Positions 15,399-55,672 of a stretch of DNA of 64,000 nt are shown in pieces. This stretch comes from Prevotella sp. (GTDB lineage Bacteria > Bacteroidota > Bacteroidia > Bacteroidales > Bacteroidaceae), in assembly GCA_017554145.1 (NCBI GenBank), contig JAFZIZ010000007.1, positions 1-64,000 on the forward strand, read 5' to 3'. The notes beneath the pieces were generated by a model. That model was not told where the DNA came from and ran no database searches. It was given only the letters and a program-made list of their open reading frames with translations. Position 1 is the first letter of the stretch, and each line of letters starts with the position of its first letter. The position numbers and the translations under genes were made by a program.

Positions 15399-15464
15399 TT
15401 GATAGATAAGAGATAATAGTTAAGAGTTAAGAGATAAGAGATAATAGTTAAGAGTTAAGAGTTG
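15399..15464 (+). repeat. Heptamer array upstream of ygiQ
   Basis: Nine 7-base units (TTGATAG, ATAAGAG, ATAATAG, TTAAGAG, TTAAGAG, ATAAGAG, ATAATAG, TTAAGAG, TTAAGAG) run from the stop codon of the preceding gene to the ygiQ start. The same family, reverse-complemented, lies inside ygiQ at 16240-16295. Confidence 0.9.
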
Positions 15465-17258
15465 ATGATGTATAGGCTGACGGATTTTCTTCCCACTACC
15501 AAGAAAGAGGTCGACCTCCGTGGATGGACGGAGGTCGATGTGATTCTGTTCAGTGGGGACGCCTATGTTGACCATCCCTCTTTCGGCGTTGCCGTTATCG
15601 GTCGTGTCTTGGAGGCAGCAGGTTATAAAGTGGCGATAGTGCCGCAACCAGACTGGCACGGAGACTTCCGTGACTTCAAGAAACTCGGGCGCCCCCGTCT
15701 GTTCTTCGGTATCTCACCAGGCTGTATGGACTCGATGGTCAACAAATACACTGCCAACCGCCGTTTGCGTTCCGAAGATGCCTATAGCCCTGACGGACGC
15801 CATGATGCCCGTCCAGAATACCCCACCATTGTCTATAGCCGCATCCTGCGTGACCTCTATCCCGATGTACCTATTATCCTTGGTGGCATTGAGGCATCGT
15901 TGCGACGCCTGACACACTATGACTACTGGCAGGACAAACTGCGCCCATGTATCCTCTGCGATGCACCTGCCGACCTTATCTCTTATGGTATGGGCGAGAA
16001 GACCGTCCTCGAGATAGCACGTCGCTTAGACGAAGGACAACCCATCTCTGCCATGCACGACCTGCCCCAGATTGTCTATCTTGCCCAAAAACAGGACATC
16101 CCTGGTGGCATCACCGAACATGACATCGTACTGCATTCCCATGAGGACTGTCTGCGCGACAAACGGAAACAGGCCGAGAACTTCCGACATATCGAAGAGC
16201 AGTCGAACATGATTCATGCCCAAAGGCTGATACAGCCAATTAACTCTCAACTATTATCTATTAACTATTATCTATTATCTATTAACTCTCAACTCTACGC
16301 AGTAGTCAACCCACCTTATCCTCCCATGACCACCGAGGAGATGGATGCCTCCTTCGACCTACCTTATACGCGTCTGCCCCATCCGAAATACAAAGGGAAG
16401 CGCATCCCCGCCTACGAGATGATCAAACACAGTGTCAATATCCATCGCGGTTGTTTCGGCGGTTGTGCCTTCTGCACCATCTCTGCCCATCAAGGAAAAT
16501 TCATTGCCTGTCGCTCGAAGGAGAGTATCTTAAAAGAGGTGAAGCAAGTTACGCAAATGGCTGATTTCAAGGGATATATCTCTGACCTCGGCGGACCTTC
16601 TGCTAATATGTACGGCATGAAGGGACGCAACCCGAAGGCCTGTGAGCGCTGTAAGCGTCCGAGTTGCATTCATCCGCAAGTCTGTCCAAACCTCGATACC
16701 AACCACAGTGCCCTACTTGATGTCTATCGTGCCGTCGATGCCATCCCTGGAGTCAAAAAAAGCTTTATCGGCAGTGGGGTGCGTTACGACCTCATCCTGC
16801 ATCGCAGCAAGGACGAAGCCTCCAACCGTGCTGCCATGGAGTATGCCCGTGAACTCATCACGCGCCACGTCAGCGGAAGACTGAAGGTAGCACCCGAACA
16901 TACCAGTGACCGAGTGCTGAACCTCATGCGCAAGCCCTCCTTCCAACTGTTCTACGACTTCAAGCGCATCTTCGACCGCATCAACCGCGAAGAGCATCTC
17001 AACCAGCAACTTATCCCCTATTTCATCTCCAGCCATCCTGGATGCACGGAGAAGGACATGGCAGAACTTGCCGAGATCACCAAGAAACTCAATTTCCACT
17101 TAGAGCAGGTACAGGACTTCACCCCCACCCCGATGACGGTTTCCACCGAGACCTGGTACACGGGTTACAACCCCTATACAATGGAAAAAGTATTCAGTGC
17201 CCGCAGTCAGAAAGAGAAACTCGCCCAGCGTCAGTATTTTTTCTGGTATAAGAAGTGA
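15465..17258 (+). CDS. YgiQ family radical SAM protein with a repeat-derived insertion
   Basis: Radical SAM protein, 597 residues, of the UPF0313/YgiQ family. The CxxxCxxC cluster motif is in HRGCFGGCAFCTISAHQGKF, preceded by the family motif YAVVNPPYPPMTTEEMD. The N-terminal domain starts MMYRLTDFLPTTKKE. ATG 15465 is preferred to TTG 15462. Between RLIQP and YAVVNPP, where family members have a short turn, this protein carries INSQLLSINYYLLSINSQL, encoded by a 56-base heptamer array (16240-16295). Frame is kept. The stop codon lies inside a 17-bp copy of the tRNA-Arg 3' end. The reaction is not established. Confidence 0.9.
   Translation: MMYRLTDFLPTTKKEVDLRGWTEVDVILFSGDAYVDHPSFGVAVIGRVLEAAGYKVAIVPQPDWHGDFRDFKKLGRPRLFFGISPGCMDSMVNKYTANRRLRSEDAYSPDGRHDARPEYPTIVYSRILRDLYPDVPIILGGIEASLRRLTHYDYWQDKLRPCILCDAPADLISYGMGEKTVLEIARRLDEGQPISAMHDLPQIVYLAQKQDIPGGITEHDIVLHSHEDCLRDKRKQAENFRHIEEQSNMIHAQRLIQPINSQLLSINYYLLSINSQLYAVVNPPYPPMTTEEMDASFDLPYTRLPHPKYKGKRIPAYEMIKHSVNIHRGCFGGCAFCTISAHQGKFIACRSKESILKEVKQVTQMADFKGYISDLGGPSANMYGMKGRNPKACERCKRPSCIHPQVCPNLDTNHSALLDVYRAVDAIPGVKKSFIGSGVRYDLILHRSKDEASNRAAMEYARELITRHVSGRLKVAPEHTSDRVLNLMRKPSFQLFYDFKRIFDRINREEHLNQQLIPYFISSHPGCTEKDMAELAEITKKLNFHLEQVQDFTPTPMTVSTETWYTGYNPYTMEKVFSARSQKEKLAQRQYFFWYKK
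16240..16295 (+). repeat. Heptamer array inside ygiQ
   Basis: Exactly eight 7-base units (TTAACTC, TCAACTA, TTATCTA, TTAACTA, TTATCTA, TTATCTA, TTAACTC, TCAACTC). It is the reverse complement of the intergenic family at 15399-15464 and matches 20056-20083. It is read through in frame as a 7-residue periodic peptide. Confidence 0.9.
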
Positions 17259-17271
17259 TTCCGTAGGGATT
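17255..17271 (+). repeat. 17-bp copy of the tRNA-Arg 3' end
   Basis: GTGATTCCGTAGGGATT is identical to 17361-17377, which covers the 3' end of the tRNA-Arg gene, and lies in the same orientation 106 bases away. It overlaps the ygiQ stop codon. It resembles an attachment-site duplication, but only a terminator lies between the copies. Confidence 0.8.
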
Positions 17272-17309
17272 AAATATCCCTTACCCTGCCACGGGCCAAT
17301 CAATCAAAA

Positions 17310-17358
17310 TGCAAAATAAATAGCGAGCTAAAGTCAACTTTGCTCGCTTTTTTGCATT
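17310..17358. terminator. Bidirectional terminator between ygiQ and tRNA-Arg
   Basis: Stem AGCGAGC (17322-17328) pairs with GCTCGCT (17342-17348), extended by AAAGT/ACTTT, and is followed by a T run on the plus strand. A-rich sequence on the other side gives a U tract on the minus strand. It serves ygiQ and the converging tRNA gene. Confidence 0.85.
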
Positions 17359-17361
17359 TTG

Positions 17362-17436
17362 TGATTCCGTAGGGATTCGAACCCTAGACCCACGCCTTAG
17401 AAGGGCGTTGCTCTAATCCAACTGAGCTACGGAACC
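17362..17436 (-). tRNA. tRNA-Arg (anticodon UCU)
   Basis: The 75-nt cloverleaf folds on the minus strand: acceptor GGTTCCG/CGGAATC, D arm GCTC/GAGC, anticodon stem ACGCC/GGCGT with loop CTTCTAA giving anticodon TCT, T arm TAGGG-TTCGAAT-CCCTA, discriminator A and no encoded CCA. A bidirectional terminator follows. A 17-bp copy of its 3' end lies about 100 bases downstream. Confidence 0.95.
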
Positions 17437-17501
17437 GACCATTTTTTGAATTCGGGTGCAAAATTAATCAAAAAAGGGGAGAATGCCAAATAAAACCCTA
17501 T

Positions 17502-18560
17502 TTATTTAAAATTCTTCCTCACACCCTGCCACTCAGGGAACTTCATTTTCAGGTATTCGTCATCGAGGAAGAGGGCGGACTGTCCTACTCTACCTTTCAA
17601 CTGCCAGTCAAGCCATTTCACTACTGCCTTAGCATAGTTACCACCATGCTTTTCGTAATAGGTGCCGCTATGTCCGTCTTTGGAATTCAGCATCACCACA
17701 GGGATATTGTCGGCAATACGCTCGTAGTCCTTCTGAGCATTGGCGTAGGCGATGTCGCCAGGACCACCAATCATATAGAACATCGGCGTATGAAGGTTCT
17801 TCAGGTTCTCCTTGGTAGTACCCATCATCTCCATATCACCGATACCTGTGTTCAGCATCACGCAGGTCTTGATACGGGGGTCGTAAGCCACACCCAGCAC
17901 CTGGGCACCGCCACATGACTGTCCCATCGCTGCCACATGGTCAAGGTCGAGACAGTGGTAGTATTCTGAGCCTGCCTTGGCATTCTGCTCCGTCAACCAG
18001 TCGAGAACCTCGAGCAACATTTTGGGATAAGTACTGAAGACGGGGGCTGTCGGTTGCTGCTGCTTCTTGTTCTTCTTGGCAGCCTTCTGAGCCTCCTCAC
18101 GCTGCTTCGCCTGTGCCTCCTGCTGAGCCTTCCGCTCCTCGGCAGTCATCGGCAGGATCTTCTCCCCGTTCGCCATGATGACATCACCCTTGGTTTCAGG
18201 ATAAGCCGACCTCAACACACCACGCCACTGTGCCATCACATCGGCCTCGTCGTAAGGACCGATGGCTGCTGCCACATAGCCATAGGAAGCCACCTCGCTC
18301 AACAGCAGGCGCATCTCCACGTTATTGTTGAAGCAGGCACCGTTGGCATAGACGATGACGGGCAGTGCACCGTTCTTGGCCACAATCTCCTTCAGGTTCT
18401 GAGGACGATAAACCGTAAATCCAGGACAGGAAGCATCACCTACCACTTCCGACTTAAACGGTCCCGTACCACCTTCTTCTACCACTTGTTTCTGAGTTGT
18501 CTGGGCGTTCAGCCCCACACTCACAGCGATCATCATCGCCGTCAAAAATAATTTCTTCAT
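17502..18560 (-). CDS. Secreted alpha/beta hydrolase
   Basis: Periplasmic or secreted hydrolase, 352 residues, with signal peptide (MKKLFLTAMMIAVSVGLNAQ). The nucleophile elbow is GQSCGG (GxSxG) and a late histidine lies in KDGHSGTYYEKHGG; the fold resembles chlorophyllase/dienelactone-hydrolase-like enzymes. A Lys/Gln/Ala-rich insert (EERKAQQEAQAKQREEAQKA) sits before the elbow. The ATG at 18560 starts directly with the signal peptide, so the longer upstream start is rejected. It lies 16 bases after the priming sugar transferase on the same strand. The substrate is unknown. Confidence 0.82.
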   Translation of the reverse strand: MKKLFLTAMMIAVSVGLNAQTTQKQVVEEGGTGPFKSEVVGDASCPGFTVYRPQNLKEIVAKNGALPVIVYANGACFNNNVEMRLLLSEVASYGYVAAAIGPYDEADVMAQWRGVLRSAYPETKGDVIMANGEKILPMTAEERKAQQEAQAKQREEAQKAAKKNKKQQQPTAPVFSTYPKMLLEVLDWLTEQNAKAGSEYYHCLDLDHVAAMGQSCGGAQVLGVAYDPRIKTCVMLNTGIGDMEMMGTTKENLKNLHTPMFYMIGGPGDIAYANAQKDYERIADNIPVVMLNSKDGHSGTYYEKHGGNYAKAVVKWLDWQLKGRVGQSALFLDDEYLKMKFPEWQGVRKNFK

Positions 18561-18576
18561 ATTGCTATGTTTTATA

Positions 18577-19980
18577 TTAATATGCATGTTTGTCGTGCAT
18601 GATCATTTGTTTGAACGTCATCCAAAGAATACGGATATCCAGCCAACATGACCAATGCTCCATATACCAAATATCCCGTTTCACACGCTCTTCCATTTGC
18701 CACAATTCTTTCGTCTCCCCACGGAAACCCGTCACTTGTGCCCAACCCGTCACACCAGGTTTCACGAAATGACGCACCATATACTGGTCTATCTGCTTCG
18801 AATACATATCCGTATGCGCCAGCATGTGTGGACGAGGTCCTACCACACTCATATCTCCTATCAGCACATTCCAGAACTGTGGCAGCTCATCGATATTCAT
18901 TTTACGCATAAAATTGCCAAACGGGAATTTTCTGGGGTCGTCCTTCGTCGCTTGCAGTTTATCTGCATCCTCATTCACATGCATCGAGCGGAACTTATAA
19001 CACGTGAAGTCCTTTCCGTCCATACCTGTACGCAACTGTTTGAAAAATAGCGGTCCTGGGCTCTGCAGTTTCACAATCAGATACACGAATGGCAACATGA
19101 TACCTATGATGACTAATGCTATCAAGGAAAGCAAGATATCCACCACGCGCTTTAACAGCCTGTTCACAGGATTCTGAAGCGGGGTCCCATACGTTGTGAA
19201 TACCTCAATATCGTGGATATATTCCCTTTGCAGATTCATGCCTAAGGTCTCCACTGAGAGGGGGACAAAATAGAATTGGGTGACATGTTTGTCGCAATAA
19301 AGAGACAACTTTCTGACAATTTCCTTTTCCTTACGTGATATACTCACAAAGAGCTCATCACCGAAATCCGGCTCCTTACCCTCCTCAATGTCTGCCATCA
19401 ATCCCTGCAACGATCCCAAATAGTCTATTTGGGCATCGTCCAACGGTGTGTCAGAATAATAGCCTCGAAAACGATATCCCATAGTAGATTCGTTACGCAT
19501 CCGTTCAAAAATACGCCGTAGTTCTTGGTCAGAGCCCACCAAAGTCACCGATCTCGTGTTTCTTCCTAATTTGCGCAACCACTTCACTAAATATCTCTCC
19601 AACAGTCTCGCCACCAACAAAACTACATAGAATATGCCAGCAATTGAGAGGATAAGCCATCCTGCTCCGGTCCAAAACATCAGATGTCTCATGAGCAGAT
19701 AGGAAACAATTGCTTGCGTCAGCACCAGATAGCATATCGTTTGCAGAATCTGCCCTGCCGAAACATAGCGTTTATGAATGATGGTATGGAATTTCCATTC
19801 GGCGATGAGCAGGGCTATCATATTGATGATGATGAATATACGTTTGTTTTCCCAACTCCACTCATTTGGTTTCATGAATTCCATGATAAAAAAGAACAAG
19901 ATAGCAGCCAGCAACATGAAGTCGCCGAATGTCACCATCCAGAGAATCATATGGTTTGAATGGTTATTTCGTCTTCTCAT
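18577..19980 (-). CDS. Polyprenyl-phosphate sugar-1-phosphate transferase (WcaJ-like)
   Basis: Priming enzyme of exopolysaccharide synthesis, moving a hexose-1-phosphate from a nucleotide sugar to undecaprenyl phosphate in the inner membrane. It has 467 residues: about four N-terminal spans, a CoA-binding-like middle domain (VTLVGSDQELRRIF), a further span, then the catalytic bacterial sugar transferase domain with DFTCYKFRSMH, RKMNIDELPQFWNVL and GDMSVVGPRPH. The glycosyltransferase cluster lies 9 kb away, so the repeat unit is built from dispersed loci. A full promoter (CTTG, 19 bases, TATCTTTG) lies at 20009-20039 on the minus strand. Confidence 0.93.
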   Translation of the reverse strand: MRRRNNHSNHMILWMVTFGDFMLLAAILFFFIMEFMKPNEWSWENKRIFIIINMIALLIAEWKFHTIIHKRYVSAGQILQTICYLVLTQAIVSYLLMRHLMFWTGAGWLILSIAGIFYVVLLVARLLERYLVKWLRKLGRNTRSVTLVGSDQELRRIFERMRNESTMGYRFRGYYSDTPLDDAQIDYLGSLQGLMADIEEGKEPDFGDELFVSISRKEKEIVRKLSLYCDKHVTQFYFVPLSVETLGMNLQREYIHDIEVFTTYGTPLQNPVNRLLKRVVDILLSLIALVIIGIMLPFVYLIVKLQSPGPLFFKQLRTGMDGKDFTCYKFRSMHVNEDADKLQATKDDPRKFPFGNFMRKMNIDELPQFWNVLIGDMSVVGPRPHMLAHTDMYSKQIDQYMVRHFVKPGVTGWAQVTGFRGETKELWQMEERVKRDIWYMEHWSCWLDIRILWMTFKQMIMHDKHAY

Positions 19981-20008
19981 AGATATTACATGTAAGAAAT
20001 TTGCATTG

Positions 20009-20039
20009 CAAAGATACGAATTTTTTTTAATCTGACAAG
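20009..20039 (-). promoter_or_regulatory. Promoter of the priming sugar transferase
   Basis: Minus-strand -33 box CTTG (20036-20039), 19-base spacer and -7 box TATCTTTG (20009-20016) fit the Bacteroidetes sigma consensus. The ATG follows about 29 bases downstream of the -7 box. Confidence 0.75.
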
Positions 20040-20055
20040 GAAATACGCCAAAATC

Positions 20056-20286
20056 TTAACTATTATCTATTATCTCTTAATTCTTTGACCACGTCAAAGA
20101 AACCGTAAACCGTCAACTGTAAACAAGCTGACAGGAACCTGTCACCTGTCATCCATTTTGGTTCGTTTTCTCTGCGCCAGAGAAAATGAATGAAATTGCC
20201 TGATGACGGTTTGGTGAATTGTTCCATTTTTTGTAATTTCGCAGTCCGAAAAAAGACATACCAACATCAAAGACGTCTCATAGACT
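20056..20286 (+). repeat. Repeat-rich intergenic region with heptamers and three hairpins
   Basis: Heptamers TTAACTA/TTATCTA/TTATCTC (20056-20083) are followed by a perfect 9-bp hairpin with loop CAC (20081-20101), a second heptamer family (CCGTAAA, CCGTCAA, CTGTAAA; about 20103-20124), a TGACAGG hairpin (20129-20151) and another perfect 9-bp hairpin with loop CGC (20166-20186). A promoter with TTTG at 20210 and TAATTTCG at 20234 follows. Confidence 0.8.
20210..20241 (+). promoter_or_regulatory. Promoter of the gene at 20287
   Basis: TTTG (20210-20213), 20-base spacer, TAATTTCG (20234-20241): one mismatch to the Bacteroidetes -7 box. The ATG lies 45 bases downstream. Confidence 0.65.
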
Positions 20287-20697: not shown

Positions 20698-20737
20698 AAA
20701 AAGACTATTCTGTGACTAATCTGCGACTAGTCTTTCC

Positions 20738-20769: not shown

Positions 20770-20787
20770 CAGCATCGAAAAACTATA

Positions 20788-23358: not shown

Positions 23359-23450
23359 CATTGTCACAGAAACACTGTGATGATGGCATGACGAAGCCTT
23401 GCGCGCAGCCCACCTCATCCATCCGACATCTAACATCAAACATCAAAACA

Positions 23451-23996
23451 ATGATCAAGTACATTCTGAAGAAATGCAAGAACGTGAAATCGGCCGTCTT
23501 CGGCAAACAGTTCGCCTATCCGGTCGTAGAAGAGACGCTCGACCTCGATGCCCTCGCCAAGCACATGTCGCAGCACAACACCCCTTACTCCAAGGGTATG
23601 ATCCGTGGCGTCCTCACCGACATGGTACGCTGTATCAAGGAGGTATTGCTGGAGGGTAAGAACGTGAAGATCGACGACCTCGCCATCTTCTCCATCGGTA
23701 TCAAGAACGCCAAGGGCGGTGCAGAGAGCGAGGAGGACTTCAACGTCTCGAAGAACATCAAGAGCGTGAAGCTCCGTGCCCGTGCCACTGGTGAGCTCAC
23801 CGCCAAATCACTCAATCTGGAGGCAACGCTGAAACGTGCCACTGCCCTGACGGGTACCACTGGCAGTGGTGGATCTACAGATTCAGGGAATAACGGATCT
23901 ACGGATTCAGGGAATAACGGAACTACGGATTCGGGGAATAACGGAAACACCGGTGGTGGCGGTACCGACCCGAATGTAGGTGGTGATGATCATTAG
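23451..23996 (+). CDS. HU-like DNA-binding protein with Gly/Asn/Ser repeat tail
   Basis: Protein of 181 residues. The HU/IHF-like domain (about 1-130) includes GMIRGVLTDMVRCIKEVLLE and the strand KNVKIDDLAIFSIGI. The tail has three near-identical STDSGNNG units followed by GNTGGGGTDPNVGGDDH, encoded by 24-base tandem repeats (about 23873-23940) and likely variable in copy number. The ATG at 23451 is chosen; the longer reading frame upstream would include the promoter. It belongs to the VirE/DUF4248/HU/smalltalk/lysozyme module. Confidence 0.85.
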   Translation: MIKYILKKCKNVKSAVFGKQFAYPVVEETLDLDALAKHMSQHNTPYSKGMIRGVLTDMVRCIKEVLLEGKNVKIDDLAIFSIGIKNAKGGAESEEDFNVSKNIKSVKLRARATGELTAKSLNLEATLKRATALTGTTGSGGSTDSGNNGSTDSGNNGTTDSGNNGNTGGGGTDPNVGGDDH

Positions 23997-24009
23997 GCCA
24001 AAGGCCTAA

Positions 24010-24155
24010 ATGAGAAATGAAGAATGAAGAATGAGGAATGTGGAATGATCGGCTTTGCCGATTGTCAATGATAAATGGGAAATTCCTCATTCGAACATCG
24101 CAGCGAAGCGAGAATAATTCAACACTCAACACTCAACATTCAACATTAAAAGATT
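24010..24155 (+). repeat. Mosaic repeat upstream of the smalltalk gene
   Basis: Heptamers (GAATGAA, GAATGAG, GAATGTG; 24013-24048) run into the hairpin ATCGGC-TTT-GCCGAT, then a segment ending AACATCGCAGCGAAGCGAGA, then CACTCAA/CATTCAA heptamers up to the ATG. Positions 24036-24131 match 55471-55566 with one mismatch in 96 bases. Positions 24094-24115 recur inverted at 24282-24303, so this 22-bp arm and its partner flank the smalltalk gene. Confidence 0.9.
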
Positions 24156-24251: not shown

Positions 24252-24377
24252 TGAGGAATTACGAATGACGAGTGAGGAATGATTCTCGCTTCGCTGCGAT
24301 GTTAAATTATTAATTCTCAATTGATCATCGCCGCAGGCGACCATTCCACACTCAACATTCCACACTCAACATTTAAA
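24252..24377 (+). repeat. Mosaic repeat between smalltalk and P5-like genes
   Basis: Heptamers (GAATTAC, GAATGAC, GAGTGAG, GAATGAT) follow the smalltalk stop. Next come the inverted 22-bp arm (24282-24303), a short hairpin TCGCC-GCA-GGCGA and heptamers CATTCCA/CACTCAA leading to the next ATG. Confidence 0.8.
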
Positions 24378-24867: not shown

Positions 24868-24899
24868 ATTTTAAACTGTCAACTGTCAACCGTAAACAC

Positions 24900-24924
24900 G
24901 CTGACAGGAATATCTCCTGTCAGC
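24900..24924. repeat. TGACAGG hairpin (REP-like)
   Basis: GCTGACAGGA (24900-24909) pairs perfectly with TCCTGTCAGC (24915-24924) over a 5-base loop. It is related to hairpins at 20129-20151 and 29315-29341. It sits beside heptamer runs (CTGTCAA, CCGTAAA before it; ACTTCAG after it). Confidence 0.8.
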
Positions 24925-24960
24925 CCTACTTCAGACTTCAGACCTCATCTCTTATAAACG

Positions 24961-26394: not shown

Positions 26395-26500
26395 TATCCC
26401 TGAACCTTGAACCATGAACCATGAACCATAAATGCCCTGAACCAAAAATTTGCCCTGTCAGCCCTACTTCAGCCTTCAGACCTCATCCTTCGTTCACAAC
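26395..26500 (+). repeat. Heptamer and 45-bp repeat region after the ATPase gene
   Basis: Three TGAACCA-type heptamers lead into a 45-base segment (26415-26459) that recurs with one mismatch at 29350-29394 in the same orientation. TGTCAGCCCTACTTCAG (from 26456) matches the segment at 24920. The two 45-bp copies bracket the AbiE pair and the RAYT gene. Confidence 0.85.
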
Positions 26501-28245: not shown

Positions 28246-28498
28246 AACTAGACAAATTTTTTAAACAGGTTGAAATTTAACATTTTCATCTGCTTATAAA
28301 ACAAATTTCCTCATTATATTATTGTCCAAATTCTCCCATTAACGAAACAACGCTGAAAGGTTATCACCTCCCAGCGTTGCTTTCTTCGCTCTTTTAATCA
28401 AAGAACCTTTATGATTTTACCTATTCTTCTATATTTTTCGTACCTTTGCAAAAATTTAGCAAACATCAGACTTCGTACTTCTAACATCATACATCTAT
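28246..28498. other. Divergent gap between AbiE operon and RAYT
   Basis: Contains a hairpin CAACGCTG/CAGCGTTG (28348-28355 and 28372-28379) followed by a pyrimidine-rich run, a -7 box TACCTTTG (28441-28448) for the RAYT gene, and heptamers (ACTTCGT, ACTTCTA, ACATCAT, ACATCTA) ending at the RAYT ATG. Confidence 0.6.
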
Positions 28499-29293
28499 AT
28501 GGCCCGACAACCACGTAAATCCTCTGGCACTGGTATTCATCATATCATGATGCGTGGCATCAATCACCAAAACATATTCTATGACGAGGAGGACTACTAC
28601 CAGTTTATCAACACCCTCGACAGGATGCGTGTGCGCTATGATGATGACGGACTACCCTGCGGTACCAACTATATCCTCTATGCCTACTGCCTCATGCCCA
28701 ACCATTTCCATCTGCTCATCCGTGAACGCGAGGACAGTCTGGGAATGGCTGTGAAGCGCATCAGTTCCTCATACGTCTATTACCACAATCACAAGTACCT
28801 ACGCGACGGACACCTGTTCAAGGAGCGCTTCAAGTCGGAACCTGTCAACGACATGGCTTATTTTACTACCTTGCTTCGCTATATTCATCAGAACCCGGTC
28901 AAGGCAGGAATTGTCAGCAATGTAAAGGACTACGAGTATAGCAGTTGGGGGGAATATACCGGACAGGTGGACCCTGTCTTCCGTCTCTGTAATATTGAGA
29001 CTGTTCTAAGGCGCATCCCTTATACAGACCTGAACGCCATTGTCAACGAGCCCCTACCAGATAGTTTTACAAGCCTCGATGATGACAATGAACGGCCGAA
29101 GTTCAGACTTTCTGACGATCAAGTGTGGCAGAACATCATCCAGATTACCCAAATAACCACTGCCACAGAATTTCAGCGACTTGACAAAGAGAGAATGAGA
29201 GAAGCTCTTAGAGAACTGAAACACCTGGGAGCATCTGTCAGACAGTTAGAGAGACTCACGGGACTTGGAAGAGGAATCATTCAAAAAATATGA
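28499..29293 (+). CDS. REP-associated tyrosine transposase (RAYT, Y1/HUH family)
   Basis: Single-strand DNA transposase of the IS200/IS605-related REP-associated group, 264 residues. The HUH motif is in CLMPNHFHLLI and the tyrosine-helix region in YVYYHNHKYLRDGHLFKERF. LRYIHQNPVKAGIV is a family hallmark. The C-terminus has a helix-turn-helix-like tail (LGASVRQLERLTGLGRG). Known relatives act on short palindromic repeats. Here TGACAGG hairpins lie directly downstream (29315-29341) and elsewhere in the island, and 45-bp direct repeats bracket the region. Confidence 0.92.
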   Translation: MARQPRKSSGTGIHHIMMRGINHQNIFYDEEDYYQFINTLDRMRVRYDDDGLPCGTNYILYAYCLMPNHFHLLIREREDSLGMAVKRISSSYVYYHNHKYLRDGHLFKERFKSEPVNDMAYFTTLLRYIHQNPVKAGIVSNVKDYEYSSWGEYTGQVDPVFRLCNIETVLRRIPYTDLNAIVNEPLPDSFTSLDDDNERPKFRLSDDQVWQNIIQITQITTATEFQRLDKERMREALRELKHLGASVRQLERLTGLGRGIIQKI

Positions 29294-29406
29294 TGACAGG
29301 TGATTGATGACAGTGATGACAGGAACCTGTCCCCTGTCATCTCAAATCCTGAACCATGAACCATAAATGCCATGAACCAAAAATTTGCCCTGTCCCCTGT
29401 CATCAT
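29294..29406 (+). repeat. REP-like hairpin and 45-bp repeat downstream of RAYT
   Basis: GATGACAGG (29315-29323) and CCTGTCATC (29333-29341) form a perfect 9-bp stem with a 9-base loop. The sequence TGACAGGAACCTGTC is shared with 20129-20143. The 45-bp copy at 29350-29394 follows. Confidence 0.85.
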
Positions 29407-50204: not shown

Positions 50205-50282
50205 TATGGAAGATGGATGATGGAAGATGTAAGATGTGGTTCGATGGAAGATGGAAGATGGATGATGGATGATGGAAGATGT
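50205..50282 (+). repeat. GATGGAA heptamer array
   Basis: Runs of GATGGAA/GATGGAT/GATGTAA/GATGTGG units with 7-base period between the Wzx-like gene and the four-helix-bundle gene. The same family is found inside that gene at 50586-50620. Confidence 0.88.
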
Positions 50283-50731
50283 TACTTTCCGTCTCCACCA
50301 TTCTCATCAAGTTTCTTGCATCTGTGAGTTAATACCTTGACTAGTTCCTCTGCATCTGTATATATACTCTTAAACTGTTCGTCTGTAAGATAGCCGTTTC
50401 GATGCAGCAAGTCAATCCAGTAGAGCGACTCGCGTGCTTCTTTGAGGGCAATGAAGCTCTTCGACTTAAAATCTGCTCTGCTTATAGCATTACATGCCTC
50501 CGCATTATTGGCTCCGATACTCGTTCCCGACCTTAATAATTGGTTACAGAGTGTCGCGACCGATTTAAGATGAACGGGAACTCGTGATGGAAGATGTTTT
50601 ATGGAAGATGGAAGATGTTGTTTGGTAGGAACATCATTGGCAGCTTGCTCTAACAGGTAATCATTGAGCTTGATTACTCTGTCGGCAAAAGCCAAACATT
50701 TGTCCTGTATCGCTTCGCTAATCTCACTCAT
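50282..50731 (-). CDS. Four-helix-bundle (23S rRNA-intervening-sequence-type) protein with repeat insertion
   Basis: Protein of 149 residues. Family blocks CLAFADRVIKLNDYLLE, CNQLLRSGTSIGANNAEAC and ADFKSKSFIALKEARESLYW are clear. Between the first two, where family members have a short link, there is TKQHLPSSIKHLPSRVP, encoded by five 7-base units (50586-50620) identical to those in the gap next to the gene. The frame is kept. These proteins occur both in rRNA intervening sequences and as free-standing genes; their role is unknown. No reverse transcriptase is near, so an Avd/DGR function is not supported. Confidence 0.85.
   Translation of the reverse strand: MSEISEAIQDKCLAFADRVIKLNDYLLEQAANDVPTKQHLPSSIKHLPSRVPVHLKSVATLCNQLLRSGTSIGANNAEACNAISRADFKSKSFIALKEARESLYWIDLLHRNGYLTDEQFKSIYTDAEELVKVLTHRCKKLDENGGDGK
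50586..50620 (+). repeat. Heptamer array inside the four-helix-bundle gene
   Basis: Five units: GATGGAA, GATGTTT, TATGGAA, GATGGAA, GATGTTG. It matches the family at 50205-50282. Confidence 0.88.
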
Positions 50732-50756
50732 ACTGGTTTATTATATTTGTTTGAAA

Positions 50757-50824: not shown

Positions 50825-50909
50825 TGTTTTAACATCTCCTACTTCAATGACATTGTCACTTTCTTGAATAATAACAAAAGCCTGTTTACTATCTTATGAC
50901 AAGATCGTG

Positions 50910-51683
50910 TTACCTCTTTTTATCATTGTTGAATCTCTGCATAAAGAAATCTGCCTGCATGATATTCTGAAGTTCAAAGATGCTTTCATTACCTTCTGCT
51001 GGGAGGAGAACCTTTCGGCTTTCTGACTGCAGGAATGCCATTCCTTTTGCATTAAATGCCAGAGGAAATACCTCCAAATAGAATAGTTGACCGAACATCC
51101 AAAAAGAATACACTCCAGTTTCCATCATCGTGCTTATGACATTCTCGTGCATTGACAGATGTGGATGCTCCATATCCTTCTCTACCAGTACTATGTTATT
51201 GAAAGCATAAAACACCCGCAAGTCACCTACATCATATCGAGCATACTTACGCACAGCATCAAACATAGGATGATTAGCATTCTTGGTCTCTTCATGGTAT
51301 TTCTGAAGGAACATTTCGTACAGCGATCGCTTAAATTGACGAGTTAACGTCCTTTCATTGAAACTTCTTTTAATTCGTATGGTATGAATACTATGGTGAT
51401 AAGTAAAAAAAGCTGAACTGAATTTCTTATAGGAGTTTTCATCCAGATGACTCAGAAAAAAACGGTAACATCCAAAAATCTCCTTAAAAGATGCATCTAT
51501 AGAAGGTACACCTGCCTTTGGAGCCTTTCCGAAATAATGATTACACTCATCGCACACATCAAAGCCTATTTCCTCGCTTCCCAATGATCGAGGGAAAACA
51601 TGTGGCCGGGTATAGAAAGTCGTTTCTGGTTTTTCTTTACCACACCAAATGCATCGACCTGTATGTGCATATTCCTTCTGCAT
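50910..51683 (-). CDS. HNH-like zinc-finger protein
   Basis: Protein of 257 residues. The N-terminal CIWCGKEKPETTF, then HVFPRSLG and CDECNHYFGK form a CxxC-H-CxxC arrangement like HNH_5 endonucleases. The remaining 200 residues are helical and of unknown type. It may be a DNA-targeting enzyme of an accessory or defence locus; no partner gene is recognised. Confidence 0.7.
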   Translation of the reverse strand: MQKEYAHTGRCIWCGKEKPETTFYTRPHVFPRSLGSEEIGFDVCDECNHYFGKAPKAGVPSIDASFKEIFGCYRFFLSHLDENSYKKFSSAFFTYHHSIHTIRIKRSFNERTLTRQFKRSLYEMFLQKYHEETKNANHPMFDAVRKYARYDVGDLRVFYAFNNIVLVEKDMEHPHLSMHENVISTMMETGVYSFWMFGQLFYLEVFPLAFNAKGMAFLQSESRKVLLPAEGNESIFELQNIMQADFFMQRFNNDKKR

Positions 51684-51768
51684 ATTCTTCTGTTCGTTTA
51701 GTTCCAGATCATTGCAGTAATATAGAGACTTTGCTCATTACGAACTCACGCAGGGAAATCTTTGCATT

Positions 51769-52053
51769 TTATTTAACACCCATTATCTCATCCCGCATCA
51801 TAAAGGCAGGTTGCCTTTTCCTGTATATACGTGGTTCAAAGAGTTGTTTTGAGTCAATAGGCGGGACGGTTACAAGACTGAGGCGGTTATGAGGTTCTTT
51901 TGGCTGTGGTCTGAATATCACTCCTTTCTCCTGAAAGAGTGCCATCGTATGCTCGAAATTCTCTCTTACTTCCTTATGTCTAACATTTGTAAAGATATTA
52001 CGTTCTCCTGGCAGGTTGCAGAAGTTTACATTAGCTGCATTAACGAAACTCAT
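51769..52053 (-). CDS. Hypothetical protein (third gene of mini-operon)
   Basis: Protein of 94 residues, MSFVNAANVNFCNLPGERNI at the start. It overlaps the preceding gene by 4 bases. It is rich in Arg, Pro and Asn, with no recognised domain. It is tightly coupled to the two small genes upstream. Confidence 0.6.
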   Translation of the reverse strand: MSFVNAANVNFCNLPGERNIFTNVRHKEVRENFEHTMALFQEKGVIFRPQPKEPHNRLSLVTVPPIDSKQLFEPRIYRKRQPAFMMRDEIMGVK

Positions 52054-52283
52054 GGTTTTGTGCTTAATAGCGAAATGGTAGTTGTGAACTCCGTCACTAT
52101 TGCACTAAGATCTGGGTTGTCATTGCGAACGATGATCGCGGCATAGTTTTCAATGCCCTCGTCATCTATCAAGGATGATGCTACAAATGTATATCGTGTT
52201 TTGCGTTCATATGTAGAGAACCAACGTTCGAAAAGTCGATTACGGAGTGCCTGTTTCTTGTCGCCCGTCTCATAATGTGACAA
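52050..52283 (-). CDS. Hypothetical protein (second gene of mini-operon)
   Basis: Frame of up to 77 residues. The first visible start is a TTG (52283) overlapping the end of the previous gene by about 14 bases; no in-frame ATG lies near the N-terminus. Sequence such as YTFVASSLIDDEGIENYAAI and IVRNDNPDLSAIV suggests a small beta-rich protein. The family is not recognised. Confidence 0.5.
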   Translation of the reverse strand: MSHYETGDKKQALRNRLFERWFSTYERKTRYTFVASSLIDDEGIENYAAIIVRNDNPDLSAIVTEFTTTISLLSTKP

Positions 52284-52413
52284 CGTAGTTTGCCTTCAGA
52301 CCTGTACGCTCTTCATAAGCGGATTTCATCTTCTGCTCAAGTTCGGCAACTGCATTCTTTTTTGTTTGCTTGGCTGCCTTAAAACGACGCAATGCTTCTT
52401 CTTTAGTCATCAT
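52270..52413 (-). CDS. Small hypothetical protein (first gene of mini-operon)
   Basis: Protein of 47 residues: MMTKEEALRRFKAAKQTKKN, then AVAELEQKMKSAYEERTGLK and ANYVVTL; basic and helical. A complete promoter (TTTG 52470-52473, 20-base spacer, TATCTTTG 52442-52449, minus strand) lies about 30 bases upstream. It heads a three-gene group of overlapping small genes, a layout often seen in small regulatory or toxin-antitoxin units; function not assigned. Confidence 0.65.
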   Translation of the reverse strand: MMTKEEALRRFKAAKQTKKNAVAELEQKMKSAYEERTGLKANYVVTL

Positions 52414-52441
52414 ATATACATCTATATTTAAAAATCTGGTA

Positions 52442-52473
52442 CAAAGATAGTGAAAAACTGGATATGCTCCAAA
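52442..52473 (-). promoter_or_regulatory. Promoter of the three-gene mini-operon
   Basis: Minus-strand TTTG (52470-52473), 20-base spacer, TATCTTTG (52442-52449). Confidence 0.7.
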
Positions 52474-52495
52474 GATTTATTGTTCATTTCTATTA

Positions 52496-52692
52496 ACCAC
52501 GGATCAAACTAATCTAACGAATCTTTTTTTTATGTAGATGACAATCTTTGGAAAGATTGCTTTATTCTTCAATAAAGGTTGATATTTTTCTAAAGTGCTT
52601 CTGAAAGTTAACTTTCAAGACACTTAAGCTAAATATAAACTTATCATCTACATAGATTTCTATTATTCGTGTTATTAGGATAATTTGTGGTT
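52496..52692 (+). repeat. ~200-bp structured repeat, copy 1
   Basis: It begins ACCACGGATCAAACTAATCT and ends in GTGGTT, giving imperfect terminal inverted repeats, with inner inverted ATGTAGATGA motifs. Inside are hairpins CAATCTTT/AAAGATTG (52542-52559) and TGAAAGT/ACTTTCA (52612-52627). Copies 2 and 3 lie at 52951-53152 and 53542-53744. Confidence 0.88.
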
Positions 52693-52950
52693 CTGAAATA
52701 TTGAATGGAGAGGTGGGGAGTTGCCTTTGGTATACAATTTTCCCTCTCCCTTGCTACCGTGGTTTTGGGGGTGGCGAGGGACAGGGTTCTGGTTGCCAAA
52801 AGGGTATAGGTCAACTATTTTCCACCTCTACACGAGGGACGAAGTCCCGTAGATTCAATAGGCATAGTGTTCTATAACGTTACAAAAGTACAACAAATTT
52901 TTAAAATAGTAAACTATTTTATAGTTTATTTTCATTTTATTTTAAATTTA
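52693..52950. other. Gap between repeat copies 1 and 2
   Basis: No gene is recognised. It holds a G-rich stretch near 52765-52790, a short hairpin AAAATAGT/ACTATTTT near 52904-52921 and otherwise AT-rich sequence. Confidence 0.5.
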
Positions 52951-53152
52951 ACCACGGATTACTCGAATTTAACGAATCTTTTTTTTATTGTATATAGATG
53001 ACAATCTTGGAAAGATTGCTTTATTCTTTGAATAAAGGTTGATATTTTTTTGAAGCATCTTGAAAGTATACTTTCAGAAGTGCTTCCAATAAATATAAAC
53101 TTATCATCTACATTAACTCTCTCTTATTCGTTTGATTAGTGAGATTAGTGGT
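52951..53152 (+). repeat. ~200-bp structured repeat, copy 2
   Basis: Same ends and internal order as copy 1; it ends 3 bases before the GxxExxY stop codon. Hairpins CAATCTT/AAGATTG (53002-53018) and GAAGCATCT-TGAAAGT/ACTTTCA-GAAGTGCTTC (about 53052-53086). Confidence 0.88.
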
Positions 53153-53155
53153 CGC

Positions 53156-53527
53156 TTATAATATTATGCGCTCTTTTTCAAGTTCACCTGGACGACCGAA
53201 GTTCAGTAGTAAGCCAAGCTTATAGCCTGTGGCATGAAGGTAGTTATATACCTGAGATCGGTGAACGTCATCTATTGCGTTTACCGCCTTCAGTTCAACA
53301 ATTATCTTCCCAAAACACACAAAATCTGCTTTGTATGTTTGCTTAAGCTCAACACCATCATACTGGATTGTCAATTCTTTTTCGCGTTCATAGGGTATTC
53401 CTTGACGCTGAAATTCTATTTCAAGTGCTTCTTGATAGACAGCTTCAAGGAAGCCGTGACCAAGGGTGTTATACACCTTGAATGCTGCTCCTATTATTTT
53501 GAAACTCTCTTCTTTGTAAACTAACAT
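53156..53527 (-). CDS. GxxExxY family protein (PD-(D/E)XK nuclease-like)
   Basis: Protein of 123 residues. The name motif is in LGHGFLEAVYQEALEIEF (G-x2-E-x2-Y), and the nuclease-type acidic residues are YKADFVCFGKIIVELKAV (D, ExK). The C-terminus YLHATGYKLGLLLNFGRPG is typical. Function is unknown; family members are widespread and often associated with repeats. Here repeat copy 2 ends 3 bases before its stop and copy 3 begins 15 bases before its start, so the gene is neatly bracketed by ~200-bp direct repeats. Confidence 0.92.
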   Translation of the reverse strand: MLVYKEESFKIIGAAFKVYNTLGHGFLEAVYQEALEIEFQRQGIPYEREKELTIQYDGVELKQTYKADFVCFGKIIVELKAVNAIDDVHRSQVYNYLHATGYKLGLLLNFGRPGELEKERIIL

Positions 53528-53541
53528 TGTTTTTTTTATTG

Positions 53542-53744
53542 ACCACGGATCAAACGAATCTAACTAATCTTTTTTTTATTGTATGTAGATGACAATCTTT
53601 GATAAGATTGCTTTATTCCATGAATAAAGGTTGATATTTTTCTGAAGCATCTTGAAAACGAGTTTTCAGAAGTGCTTCCAAATAATAACAACTTATCATC
53701 TACATAGATTTCTATTATTCGTGTTATTAGGATAATTCGTGGTT
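53542..53744 (+). repeat. ~200-bp structured repeat, copy 3
   Basis: Same layout. Its hairpin TGAAAAC/GTTTTCA differs from the TGAAAGT/ACTTTCA of copies 1 and 2 at two base pairs, with both sides changed so pairing is preserved. Confidence 0.88.
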
Positions 53745-53768
53745 CTAAAAGACTAAAAAAGAAAAACT

Positions 53769-53933
53769 TTAACCGAAGAGGTAGGCGGCACAGACTAAGA
53801 GGACCATGAGGAGGGCGAGGACGAAGAGGGAGAGCTTCAGCCATTTATCGGTCTTGTGACGGAGCTTGATACTCCGGAGGCTACGCTCCTTAAATATAGA
53901 GGCGTAGTCCTTCCGATGGTGATGATGGGACAT
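53769..53933 (-). CDS. Small single-span membrane protein of the export locus
   Basis: Protein of 54 residues: MSHHHHRKDYASIFKERSLR, then a basic amphipathic stretch and a C-terminal span LKLSLFVLALLMVLLVCAAY. Heptamers (CTTAACT/CTTATCT/ATTAATT in the coding direction) run right up to its ATG. It follows wza on the same strand and may be an accessory of the polysaccharide export complex; no family is recognised. Its codons read cleanly from ATG to TAA. Confidence 0.7.
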   Translation of the reverse strand: MSHHHHRKDYASIFKERSLRSIKLRHKTDKWLKLSLFVLALLMVLLVCAAYLFG

Positions 53934-53934
53934 A

Positions 53935-54060
53935 TAAGAGTTAATAATTAATAATTAATAATTAAGAGTTAAGAGATAAGAGTTAAGAGATAATAATTAA
54001 TAATTAAGAGTTTACTGTTTACCGTTTACTGTTTACCGTTTACTGTTTACTGAGTCCCGT
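53935..54060 (+). repeat. Heptamer arrays between wza and the small membrane protein
   Basis: TAATTAA-type units (53940-53968), TTAAGAG/ATAAGAG units, then GTTTACT/GTTTACC units to the wza stop. Three heptamer families lie in tandem. Confidence 0.88.
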
Positions 54061-54867
54061 TTACTTGAGGATGGTGTAGAGGAGGGAGGCGAGGGAGACG
54101 AGGATGCTGGTGGAGGTGAGCCAGAGGGAGGTGGACTGACCGATACCAGAGTTGCGTGCCTTGACCTTATTGGGCTCTACATAGACGATGTCGTTCTGCT
54201 GCAAGTAGTAGTAGGGAGAACTGATGATGTTGACATCATTGAGATTGAGGGTATAGACATTCTTCTGACCATTGTACTCCTCGCGGATGAGTTTCACACG
54301 GTCACGGACACCATAGATGGTGAGGTCGCCTGCTTGTGCCAATGCCTCGAAGATATTGATCTTCTCATTACCTACCGTGAAGACACCAGGACGGGCGACT
54401 TCGCCAATGACCGAGATCTTATAGTTCGCCATACGGACGGTGACGACCGGATTCTCCTTGGCATTCAGATAAGGAAGGATCTTGTCGTGAATCATCGTCT
54501 CACACTCGGACTTGGTGAGTCCTCCTACATGCAGTTGACCCAACACAGGGAAATTGATGGTGCCGTCGTTGCCCACCAGATAGGTCTGGAGCGCACGGCT
54601 CTGACCAAGATTACGACCGCCATTCGACGTATTCAGTGCCGTAGAGACTACCAAGTTGAAGGGTTCTGCTGCCTCTGGATTGACGGTATTGACGGTGATG
54701 GTCAATACATCCTTAGGCATGATGCGGGCATCGTAGAGATAGGTGGAACGGGCGGCATCAAACTGGTCACTATTCTGGATATAAGCGACATTCTTAGATG
54801 AGGAACAGGAGGATAGCCACAAGGCGACTGTCAGAAACAAGACGCTAACAATCAAATTCTTTTTCAT
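54061..54867 (-). CDS. wza: Wza-type polysaccharide export lipoprotein
   Basis: Outer-membrane polysaccharide exporter, 268 residues. A lipoprotein signal (LWLSSCSSSKNVAYIQ, lipobox Cys near residue 21) is followed by the Poly_export domain (DARIMPKDVLTITVNTVNPE) and SLBB domains (YKISVIGEVARPGVFTVGNE, NIFEALAQAGDLTIYGVRDR). A C-terminal hydrophobic segment (TSILVSLASLLYTIL) is typical of Bacteroidetes members. It lies two genes downstream of wzc on the same strand. Confidence 0.93.
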   Translation of the reverse strand: MKKNLIVSVLFLTVALWLSSCSSSKNVAYIQNSDQFDAARSTYLYDARIMPKDVLTITVNTVNPEAAEPFNLVVSTALNTSNGGRNLGQSRALQTYLVGNDGTINFPVLGQLHVGGLTKSECETMIHDKILPYLNAKENPVVTVRMANYKISVIGEVARPGVFTVGNEKINIFEALAQAGDLTIYGVRDRVKLIREEYNGQKNVYTLNLNDVNIISSPYYYLQQNDIVYVEPNKVKARNSGIGQSTSLWLTSTSILVSLASLLYTILK

Positions 54868-54899
54868 ATCTATTTTATTTTCTATTTTAGTTGCTTCGA

Positions 54900-54931
54900 A
54901 GTTAACTCTCTTACATCTTACATCTTACTTC
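54900..54931 (-). repeat. Heptamer array upstream of wza
   Basis: In the coding direction GTAAGAA, GTAAGAT, GTAAGAT, GTAAGAG units lie between the HAD-like gene and wza. Confidence 0.7.
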
Positions 54932-55381
54932 TTACTTAATATTAAGGAAGCGTTTCCACCATGGACGATGGTGGTGATGACGGGTGCCATAGTCTTTCTC
55001 GCCTGTGGCTGCCTCATGGATGAGCTGGTGCCACTGCGTGCCATGGCTGACCATGCGATAGATGGTACCCCAGTCGGGGAGACCTCCGAGGTTACGGTCG
55101 TCGATGAAGATATCGGCCTTGACCTTACGACTGAAATGGTCGTTATTACTGACCGTCTCTTCGGGATAGTCGCGATTGACGGCATAGAACTCAATGCCCC
55201 GTTCACGACACCAGTTGACGGCGTCGTCGAGCAACTTGCCTTCTCTTACCGACCACAATATCAACTGATGGTGCTCTGCCATGAGCATCCTCAGCGTCTG
55301 GACGGCGAAGGGCTTCTCTTCGCCAATCTCAGGATAGCGGTGGTCAACAATCGTTCCGTCGAAATCTACTGCAATGGTCAT
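54932..55381 (-). CDS. HAD-like phosphatase (BT_0820-like)
   Basis: Protein of 149 residues starting MTIAVDFDGTIVDHRYPEIG, with HAD motif I (DFDGT), a motif II-like LILWSVREGKLLDDAV and late acidic motif KADIFIDDRNLGGLP. The active-site Asp residues are present, so phosphatase activity on a sugar phosphate is plausible but the substrate is unknown. It lies between wzc and wza. Heptamers precede its ATG directly. Confidence 0.85.
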   Translation of the reverse strand: MTIAVDFDGTIVDHRYPEIGEEKPFAVQTLRMLMAEHHQLILWSVREGKLLDDAVNWCRERGIEFYAVNRDYPEETVSNNDHFSRKVKADIFIDDRNLGGLPDWGTIYRMVSHGTQWHQLIHEAATGEKDYGTRHHHHRPWWKRFLNIK

Positions 55382-55384
55382 AAT

Positions 55385-55672
55385 CTGAATTAGGAATTAG
55401 GAATGACGAATGACGAATGTGGAATGACGAATGTGGAATGACGAATGTGGAATGACGAATGTGGAATGACGAATGTGGAATGATCGGCTTTGCCGATTGT
55501 CAATGATAAATGGGAAATTCTTCATTCGAACATCGCAGCGAAGCGAGAATAATTCAACACTCAACATTCAACATTCAACACTCAACATTCAACACTCAAC
55601 ACTCAACATTCAACACTCAACATTCAACACTCAACATTCAACACTCAACATTCAACACTCAACATTTTTATA
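55385..55672 (+). repeat. Large heptamer and hairpin mosaic between wzc and the HAD-like gene
   Basis: About ten GAATGAC/GAATGTG units (55390-55482), the hairpin ATCGGC-TTT-GCCGAT, a unique-looking stretch, then about sixteen CATTCAA/CACTCAA units (55554-55665). Bases 55471-55566 match 24036-24131 with one mismatch, 31.4 kb away. Confidence 0.95.

Follow-up and report, generated by a model that had tools for sequence, protein, structure and literature searches.

Tandem repeats with a unit of seven nucleotides (nt) have been described from several bacterial groups, and we compare with them the heptad arrays in a 64,000-nt stretch of DNA from Prevotella sp. (assembly GCA_017554145.1, contig JAFZIZ010000007.1, positions 1 to 64,000 of the forward strand), the whole of which we call the window. 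In the survey of Mrazek et al. (2007), as PMC4679880 summarises it, heptamers outnumber every other category of long repeat in most genomes, TAACTGA arrays lie near start codons in Beggiatoaceae, cyanobacteria and five Bacteroidetes (MacGregor 2015, PMC4679880), G-rich heptamers (GGGAATC) occur in Xanthomonas and Nostoc (PMC4692102), and a tree-wide survey reports a high short-repeat density in Bacteroidota (PMC12699852). For TAACTGA sets inside open reading frames (ORFs), 13 overlap a stop codon and the rest are found chiefly in hypothetical proteins of short length or close to the ends of proteins, and repeats within genes are summarised there as having unit lengths mostly divisible by three (PMC4679880). 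The Prevotella arrays are like these short tandemly repeated repetitive (STRR), TAACTGA and GGGAATC heptanucleotides in being tandem 7-nt units at many loci, mostly intergenic, often near start codons and of sporadic taxonomy (PMC4679880, PMC4692102), whereas they differ from the STRR and TAACTGA repeats in having many unit families per genome, species dialects, a large in-frame share (in two genomes) and some hairpin composites. The units called in the window differ from TAACTGA, which was not searched for genome-wide. In our literature search, made mostly without subscription journals, we found no description of heptad arrays in Prevotella, and none of genome dialects or of heptads lying in frame in a range of core enzymes. 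Heptamer repeats as such have been reported from other organisms; their combination with dialects and in-frame enzyme arrays was not found in print. An earlier note on this DNA, made from the sequence alone, had likewise known of no description for the lineage; our searches found none on Prevotella, but TAACTGA heptamers are described in five other Bacteroidetes (PMC4679880).

We found that heptad units form largely genome-specific families that are common to unlinked loci, and that arrays are gained, lost or replaced at the same site between species. Our preferred reading, to which we give a probability of about one half, is that the arrays are tolerated, mainly selfish or neutral interspersed micro-repeats, common but patchy in Prevotella, with lengths that change seven bases at a time and new sites that arise by copying.

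The genome to which the window belongs, as its contig 1, has 2.8 Mb in 38 contigs (estimated 83.5% complete; G000). Arrays of the window were called with Tandem Repeats Finder (TRF) and a lag-7 segment scan. The window contains 23 exact lag runs of at least 9 at period 7, against 0-5 at any other period from 2 to 13, and periods 14, 21 and 28 appear as harmonics of 7. Across a blind sample of the same genome, 27 stretches of 20 kb chosen without regard to arrays (540 kb), we observed, at a fixed score, 65 period-7 arrays versus 0, 1, 10 and 6 at periods 5, 6, 8 and 9, with at least one in 21 of the 27 stretches, while Markov shuffling of the stretches yielded 0. The excess persists outside called genes (26 versus 0, 0, 9 and 2 at the same periods), where gene calls and gene starts, here and in all counts of coding sequences (CDS) below, come from our own codon-usage caller. 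Blind stretches, here and in the relatives, are those without a match in earlier array searches, sorted after fetching, a procedure that lowers the blind counts of genomes G010 and G016. Genome G008 holds 109 period-7 arrays in 436 kb of such stretches, together with 18 period-8 and 16 period-9 arrays, and genome G019 holds 35 period-7 and 35 period-8 arrays in 414 kb (34 and 31 without L262, a stretch classed as blind that holds an earlier-search match). In G003 there are 6 arrays in 80 kb and in G004 there is 1 in 78 kb; 190 kb taken from four genomes of other families contain a single array. Counts this uneven among Prevotella genomes mark the feature as patchily distributed in the genus. 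The period-8 arrays resemble heptads in their letters (AAAAGGGT, TTTAGGAG, ATGAGGTT and TTGAACTC; G019 L245-L263, G008 L243:2554-2649 and L235:11460-11560).

Arrays also recur in other assemblies. For a radical SAM gene of the window, putatively ygiQ, the closest relatives with a name come from rumen Prevotella (tblastn). Of 80 named ygiQ loci in other assemblies (at most 10 kb each), 23 carry one or more period-7 arrays, including Prevotella sp. tf2-5 (L045) and strain MN60 (L056). It is therefore barely credible that the arrays are an artefact of metagenome assembly or gene calling, for which the fragmented, incomplete assembly and the scripted gene calls might speak: like arrays stand at orthologous sites and in named genomes that were assembled independently, 8 of the 10 array-bearing proteins scanned exceed the cut-off of a well-known NCBIfam family, and CTP and GMP synthase align, with gaps, to solved structures.

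The earlier note had proposed genome-scale period-7 repeats in several unit families, a proposal supported by the lag runs of the window and by the blind stretches. Of the 15 array places that it named, 14 were recovered by TRF or the lag-7 scan (24340 by TRF only, at period 14), and the remaining one, ACATCAA/ACATCTA at 28470, is too degenerate (lag-7 score 6.0). Its constant unit length describes the window's genome but not all of the relatives, as the equal numbers of period-7 and period-8 arrays in G019 make plain.

We observed that distant arrays within one genome often have a canonical heptamer in common, with 157 of 2017 pairs in the window's genome (7.8%), 861 of 5695 in G008 (15.1%) and 107 of 557 in G019 (19.2%), as against 1.0-4.4% of the pairs between genomes (229 of 7085, 100 of 2275 and 39 of 3815) and 1.2-4.1% of pairs sharing a unit in unit-column-permuted nulls. 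When labels were permuted by stretch, the observed difference between within-genome and between-genome sharing was not reached in any of 200 permutations. Whole-genome searches for exact triplets covered 200 genomes of the genus, overlapping matches within one array being counted separately. Three copies of AACTGTG gave 20 matches in G008 (14 places), 25 in G150, 1 in G197 and 0 in the other 197 genomes, and three copies of GTTAAGAG were found in 15 of the 200, the leading four having 21, 15, 11 and 9 matches and the window's genome 2; the genome with 11 matches has two arrays only. The backwards control of the GTTAAGAG search is by chance another heptad family, and it peaks elsewhere (G189 with 14 matches, G126 with 12).

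These dialects bear directly on the idea that each site slips independently, with a preferred 7-nt step and no exchange between loci. Such slippage would fit the harmonics at 14, 21 and 28 and the changes in arm length described below, as well as the rank of heptanucleotides as the commonest long-repeat category, for which a polymerase-contact length has been proposed (via PMC4679880). However, because unit families are largely genome-specific and common to distant loci, slippage at each locus alone is insufficient; the within-genome sharing exceeds that of the column-permuted nulls, exact triplets are confined to few genomes, and we regard this explanation as quite unlikely. The single copying or slippage mechanism with varying sequence that was first suggested for the window is still plausible, except that the sequences are not free to vary but belong to largely genome-specific families spread across distant loci. 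A link with phages was also tried, and exact heptad triplets occurred in 3, 0 and 12 IMG/VR stretches, which may be phage or host DNA. Heptad triplets are shared by the IMG/VR contigs L271-L285 (phage or misclassified host DNA), among which L277 carries ten arrays.

The ygiQ locus allows one site to be followed across species. The spacer before the gene could be anchored in 34 of the 80 named loci, the 46 unanchored loci being left out, and it is filled by heptads in 10 of the 34, as in the window, with units that vary by species (GTTGAGA, GTTGAAA, AGAGGTG/AGAGGTA, AATTCAT, TAAAAGC and others); in L046 and L051 the spacers look period 8. L070 and L071 come from two species with 94.6% identity across the 9.6 kb that could be aligned. 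Between them, the spacer separating ygiQ from the upstream gene differs by a clean 40-bp array, which L070 lacks, and at a second site, the start of a lipoprotein-like gene, the heptads of the two are quite different. Additionally, an armed insert lies inside ygiQ in L083 and not in L076. On the reverse strand of L070 (6930-7030), GGCTTTT/GGCTGTT heptads code a segment of the lipoprotein-like signal peptide, SGFWLLVVGFWLLVACGDE, and the L071 sequence there is unrelated; similar array-coded signal peptides seem, by eye, to lie at L227:18688 and L237:18215. The structure model of YgiQ, built from a 25-row alignment, is weak (mean predicted local distance difference test score, pLDDT, 65.8; mean 58 over residues 261-270), and it sets the array residues, ~256-272 of the modelled chain, between predicted strands 251-255 and 273-277, a position that fits a loop in a model too weak to decide.

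Replacement at a constant site may also be read, tentatively, as genome-wide rewriting in 7-nt steps, in which heptad sites in spacers and loops would be overwritten by the current units of the genome, a concerted evolution without shared flanks that might proceed by template switching or insertion of single-stranded DNA. If this were true, the loops of essential enzymes would be continually re-encoded by a spreading micro-repeat.

Repeats with a non-triplet unit are generally regarded as unfavourable within genes, because they break the reading frame. The arrays had at first been placed in non-coding gaps, and arrays in gaps do exist, but 39 of the 65 blind arrays of the window's genome lie fully within CDS (24 of 109 in G008, 2 of 35 in G019), and that at 16242-16296 of the window runs in the frame of ygiQ. 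In the blind stretches, period-7 arrays occur in 27 of 416 called CDS in the window's genome, 15 of 328 in G008 and 2 of 316 in G019. The 39 in-CDS arrays of the window's genome compare with 1, 1, 4 and 1 at periods 3, 6, 9 and 12, and the rule that in-gene unit lengths are mostly divisible by three is thus broken there (39 versus 7), whereas G019 fits it better (2 versus 4). The proteins above the NCBIfam cut-off are CTP synthase in G008, GMP synthase in G019, and MiaB, PrmC, RsgA, CbiD, the glutamate synthase small subunit and MurF in the window's genome; the array protein of L221 is response-regulator-like and below the cut-offs, and that of L012 had no family match in the NCBIfam scan. By eye, the protein represented in L012 and L231 has arrays at a matching motif.

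Several of these hosts can be compared with solved structures or orthologues. In the CTP synthase of G008 the left arm, core and right arm of a composite element (described below) are all in frame, and residues 454-485, which hold both arms, form an insert between blocks aligned to the solved structure. The series across genomes comprises a short loop in the window's genome, an AACTGTG insert of ~11 residues in G150, and an AACTGTG arm, core and inverted arm in G008. The GMP synthase of G019 has its array residues, 177-188, at the end of an insert (149-182) relative to the solved structure, and a second insert, 449-483, has no evident heptads. For the CTP synthase series, as for the orthologue-span, split-gene and flank or inverted-partner tests, blind and hit-chosen stretches were pooled. 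An orthologue from another genome spans 41 of 116 in-CDS arrays, of which 17 are insertions and 14 meet an array of the orthologue itself at or near the site (7 per side, five proteins), with positions obtained by linear interpolation and precise to ~60 nt; the MurF orthologues carry their arrays in neighbouring loops, not in one and the same loop. Arrays within genes are pyrimidine-rich on the sense strand in 27 of 39 cases in the window's genome, 20 of 24 in G008 and 0 of 2 in G019, and of the six frames they leave a mean of 2.81 (window's genome) and 3.00 (G008) open, versus 1.85 and 1.88 for gap arrays. Among 261 gap arrays tested, 165 had a foreign protein hit, and none of these lay between the halves of one protein (proteins from the sampled stretches only); the proposal that arrays split genes or are skipped at translation was rejected on this count. 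One large orthologous protein is an extreme hotspot, with at least six heptad arrays in the window's genome (L014:6353-9727) and five in G008 (L238:11669-15190), some at matching positions.

Two described systems come close to this in-gene behaviour. Rickettsia palindromic elements are likewise small repeats found in frame in unrelated genes (PMC10969869), and in-frame insertion into conserved genes, a trait of these elements and of miniature inverted-repeat transposable elements (MITEs), is found here in the 17 insertions and the inserts of CTP and GMP synthase. Borg tandem repeats are similarly fast-evolving arrays in gaps and ORFs that give new protein segments and have a conserved-protein hotspot; their ORF units, however, are divisible by three and essentially unique per region, whereas in Prevotella the period of 7 is kept in genes and units are common across loci (PMC9879509, in part).

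Of the arrays between genes, 15 of 24 in the window's genome (13.0 expected), 41 of 78 in G008 (17.5 expected) and 12 of 30 in G019 (3.8 expected) have an edge no more than 6 nt from the start or stop of a CDS, and the earlier statement that many arrays end at a start codon is thus only partly right. Array densities in divergent versus tandem gaps are 0.16 versus 0.73 per kb in the window's genome, 0.37 versus 1.51 in G008 and 0.60 versus 0.59 in G019. If arrays were cis-regulatory, either bound in the leader by a protein that recognises RNA or DNA or serving as translation-coupling spacers, a purine-rich sense strand in tandem gaps would be expected to fit, and it is seen in 14 of 19 arrays of the window's genome and 15 of 22 of G019, as would the frequent abutment on CDS ends in G008 and G019. 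By contrast, tandem gaps in G008 have no strand preference (30 of 63 purine-rich), divergent gaps are the poorest in arrays in the window's genome and G008, though not in G019, and the unit sequence is not kept at orthologous junctions while the position is. Since position is kept without sequence, divergent gaps are poor in arrays in two of three genomes, and the near relative L070 is wholly without a ygiQ array, regulation is unlikely as a rule; we argue against it in that form and consider it possible for single arrays. The suggestion of a spacing-based function found no support, the promoter-bearing divergent gaps being poorest in two of the three genomes and most blind arrays of the window's genome (39 of 65) lying in CDS.

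Some arrays belong to composite elements. In two copies in the window (24008-24150 and 55387-55666) a hairpin core is flanked by heptad arrays as inverted arms; between the copies the core has 1 mismatch in 78, and the arms measure 40 versus 96 nt and 32 versus 111 nt. With cores near-identical and arm lengths unlike, either unit number changes faster than base substitution or arms are exchanged. Four further core matches besides the query occur in the window's genome, with heptads adjoining the core in those printed (L266, L267, L268 and the reverse copy at 24277). Inverted array partners number 1 of 136 in the window's genome (1.0 expected), 19 of 155 in G008 (6.1 expected) and 9 of 85 in G019 (6.2 expected), and direct partners, at 4 versus 1.0, 15 versus 5.3 and 22 versus 6.9, are as enriched as inverted ones. 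Hairpin-cored composites are a minority of arrays in the window's genome, and the inverted-arm element was rejected as a universal architecture, as inverted partners are not above chance there.

An alternative is that a transposase moves small elements with a hairpin core, comparable to Rickettsia palindromic elements, MITEs or doublets of repetitive extragenic palindromic (REP) sequences, that the arrays are the arms of these elements and can expand, and that solitary arrays are remnants. The further core matches with adjoining heptads, the in-frame arm-core-arm of CTP synthase in G008, the armed ygiQ insert present in L083 and missing from L076, and the inverted-partner excess of G008 all speak for this. 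We find it doubtful, as the window's genome has no inverted excess and G019 little, direct partners are equally enriched, the cores at separate loci of G008 look unrelated by eye, and the transposase of the window is unmatched in four relatives. Rickettsia palindromic elements are ~150-bp palindromes in defined families (PMC10969869, in part), while the Prevotella arrays only partly have an inverted partner; the conserved inverted-repeat core typical of these elements and of MITEs is represented by one core family (the query and its 4 matches), with inverted partners at chance in the window's genome and above it in G008.

Candidate enzymes were searched for across the genomes. A transposase resembling the Y1 or REP-associated tyrosine transposase (RAYT) kind is encoded at 28499-29293 of the window (PF01797, 29.7 bits), with hairpins of the TGACAGG...CCTGTCA type nearby. 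By eye, hairpins of this type adjoin several heptad arrays (hairpins at 20124-20155, 24897-24947, 26440-26490 and 29290-29400), and near 24900-24930 the reverse reading is GTAG followed by a hairpin, as in REP elements. REP/RAYT and MITE repeats are comparable as dispersed hairpins (PMC3733652, in part), the hairpins of the window adjoining both heptads and the Y1 transposase by eye; dependence on a RAYT transposase, however, is not seen, as heptads abound where the window's transposase is undetected. Used as a query, this protein had no match in the array-rich genomes G008, G014, G015 and G019 (completeness 90, 65, 79 and 91%); PF01797 is lacking in G008 and G019 and barely above the cut-off in G014 and G015. 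A RAYT/Y1 transposase as driver was rejected because the window protein is unmatched in these four array-rich relatives.

An origin by reverse transcriptase, a telomerase-like enzyme or deficient mismatch repair is very improbable. An RNA-templated copier would fit short templated repeats at many sites, but RVT_1 had no match in array-rich G000, G008, G014, G015 and G019, nor in array-poor G004, and matched in G003, G010 and G016, and a reverse transcriptase was rejected as origin on its absence from the five array-rich genomes tested. Loss of mismatch repair was rejected in turn, mutS being above the cut-off in 9 of 9 genomes.

Under our preferred reading of tolerated micro-repeats, arrays would grow and shrink in 7-base steps by slippage or unequal exchange, and new sites would be seeded by the copying of short stretches from existing arrays, through template switching or microhomology-guided insertion and in part perhaps by hitching on hairpin elements. 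Arrays would persist where selection tolerates them, in spacers, signal peptides and protein loops; inside genes selection would keep the frame open and favour one strand, and an array might occasionally be co-opted as coding sequence.

Several observations weigh against this reading. The copying step is inferred and not directly seen, with no enzyme assigned to it. Non-array flanks are common to another sampled array in only 9 of 136 arrays of the window's genome (43 of 155 in G008, 37 of 85 in G019), which implies that units of the window's genome travel mostly without flanks, within the ~30% of that genome sampled. The blind stretches of G016 (140 kb) and G010 (180 kb) have 0 period-7 arrays; hit-bearing stretches have 12 in G016 (60 kb) and 5 in G010 (20 kb), and all stretches together give 12 and 5 per 200 kb each. 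The dialect contrast in the window's genome is modest and the weakest of the three (7.8% within versus 3.2 and 4.4% between), and the ygiQ spacers of L076 and L083 differ by 27 nt, no multiple of 7. Within genes, G008 has 24 period-7 arrays versus 21 of frame-safe period (3, 8, 3 and 7 at periods 3, 6, 9 and 12), G019 has only 2 of its 35 period-7 arrays in CDS versus 0, 2, 0 and 2 at those periods, and 10 of the 41 spanned arrays show no length change, which means that change in place, not insertion, accounts for some sites. Furthermore, gap and CDS arrays in G019 hardly differ in the number of open frames (3.62, n=26 versus 3.50, n=2), and both of its CDS arrays are purine-rich. Slippage cannot be very fast either, since slipping non-triplet arrays in essential enzymes should cause frameshifts.

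The features of the window are collected in Table 1. The HU-HIG gene also has a 24-bp tandem repeat of about three copies near its 3' end (window 23871-23945), of the ordinary triplet-compatible type. A separate class of 22-bp-spaced repeats with short hairpins (CCGAAGAGG, TTCCCACGTTGGGAA) occurs in the window's genome, with 15 at period 22 in the 540 kb (L012:2324-2455, L019:11467-11548, L209:1101-1152 and others).

Table 1. Heptad arrays and associated features of the window (positions in the 64,000-nt stretch)
Feature	Positions	Strand	Evidence
Heptad array TAATTCT, between two minus-strand genes	1454..1485	.	TRF, lag-7 score 14.6, gene calls
Heptad array GTTAAGA/GATAAGA/GATAATA, filling the spacer between the upstream gene's stop codon and the ygiQ start	15396..15463	+	TRF, lag scan, spacers of relatives
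ygiQ-like radical SAM gene, host of an in-frame array	15465..17258	+	tblastn relatives, 25-sequence alignment
In-frame array CTATTAT, CTATTAA, CTCTCAA inside ygiQ, coding approximately NSQLLSINYYLLSINSQLY; site shorter in many relatives	16242..16296	+	Lag scan, gene comparison
Two heptad arrays (TTAACTA/TTATCTA; AAACCGT/CAACTGT) adjoining hairpin GCTGACAGG...CCTGTCA	20056..20124	.	TRF, lag scan; hairpin by eye
Heptad array ACATCTA/ACATCAA directly upstream of the HU-HIG gene	23420..23447	+	TRF, lag scan, gene calls
Copy 1 of the composite element, with a (GAATGNN)n arm at 24008-24047, the hairpin core at 24045-24122 and a (NNCATTC)n arm at 24119-24150	24008..24150	+	
Element with partial reverse core (24277-24328), arms GAATGAC and CATTCCACACTCAA	24256..24373	.	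TRF, lag scan, core search
AACTGTC array, hairpin with reverse GTAG, ACTTCAG array	24874..24947	.	Arrays by lag scan; hairpin by eye
TGAACCA heptad array	26398..26432	.	TRF, lag scan
GATGGAA/GATGGAT heptad array; extra short array 50601-50617	50206..50281	.	TRF, lag scan
Single in-phase array passing from TTAAGAG/TTAATAA units to GTTTACT/GTTTACC units	53935..54052	.	TRF, lag scan
TCTTACA/TCTTACT array, between two minus-strand genes	54909..54937	.	Lag scan, gene calls
Copy 2 of the composite element, with arms at 55387-55482 and 55554-55664 and the core at 55480-55557; takes up the gap that separates two minus-strand genes	55387..55666	+	

In rumen metagenomes, heptad arrays may mislead both gene callers and assemblers. 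They also make it possible to address why a unit of 7 nt is favoured in bacteria and how micro-repeats spread between unlinked sites. With arrays in 27 of 416 called genes in the blind stretches of the window's genome, and in the CTP and GMP synthases of its relatives, Prevotella offers a natural test of the origin of protein loops and signal peptides from repeats.

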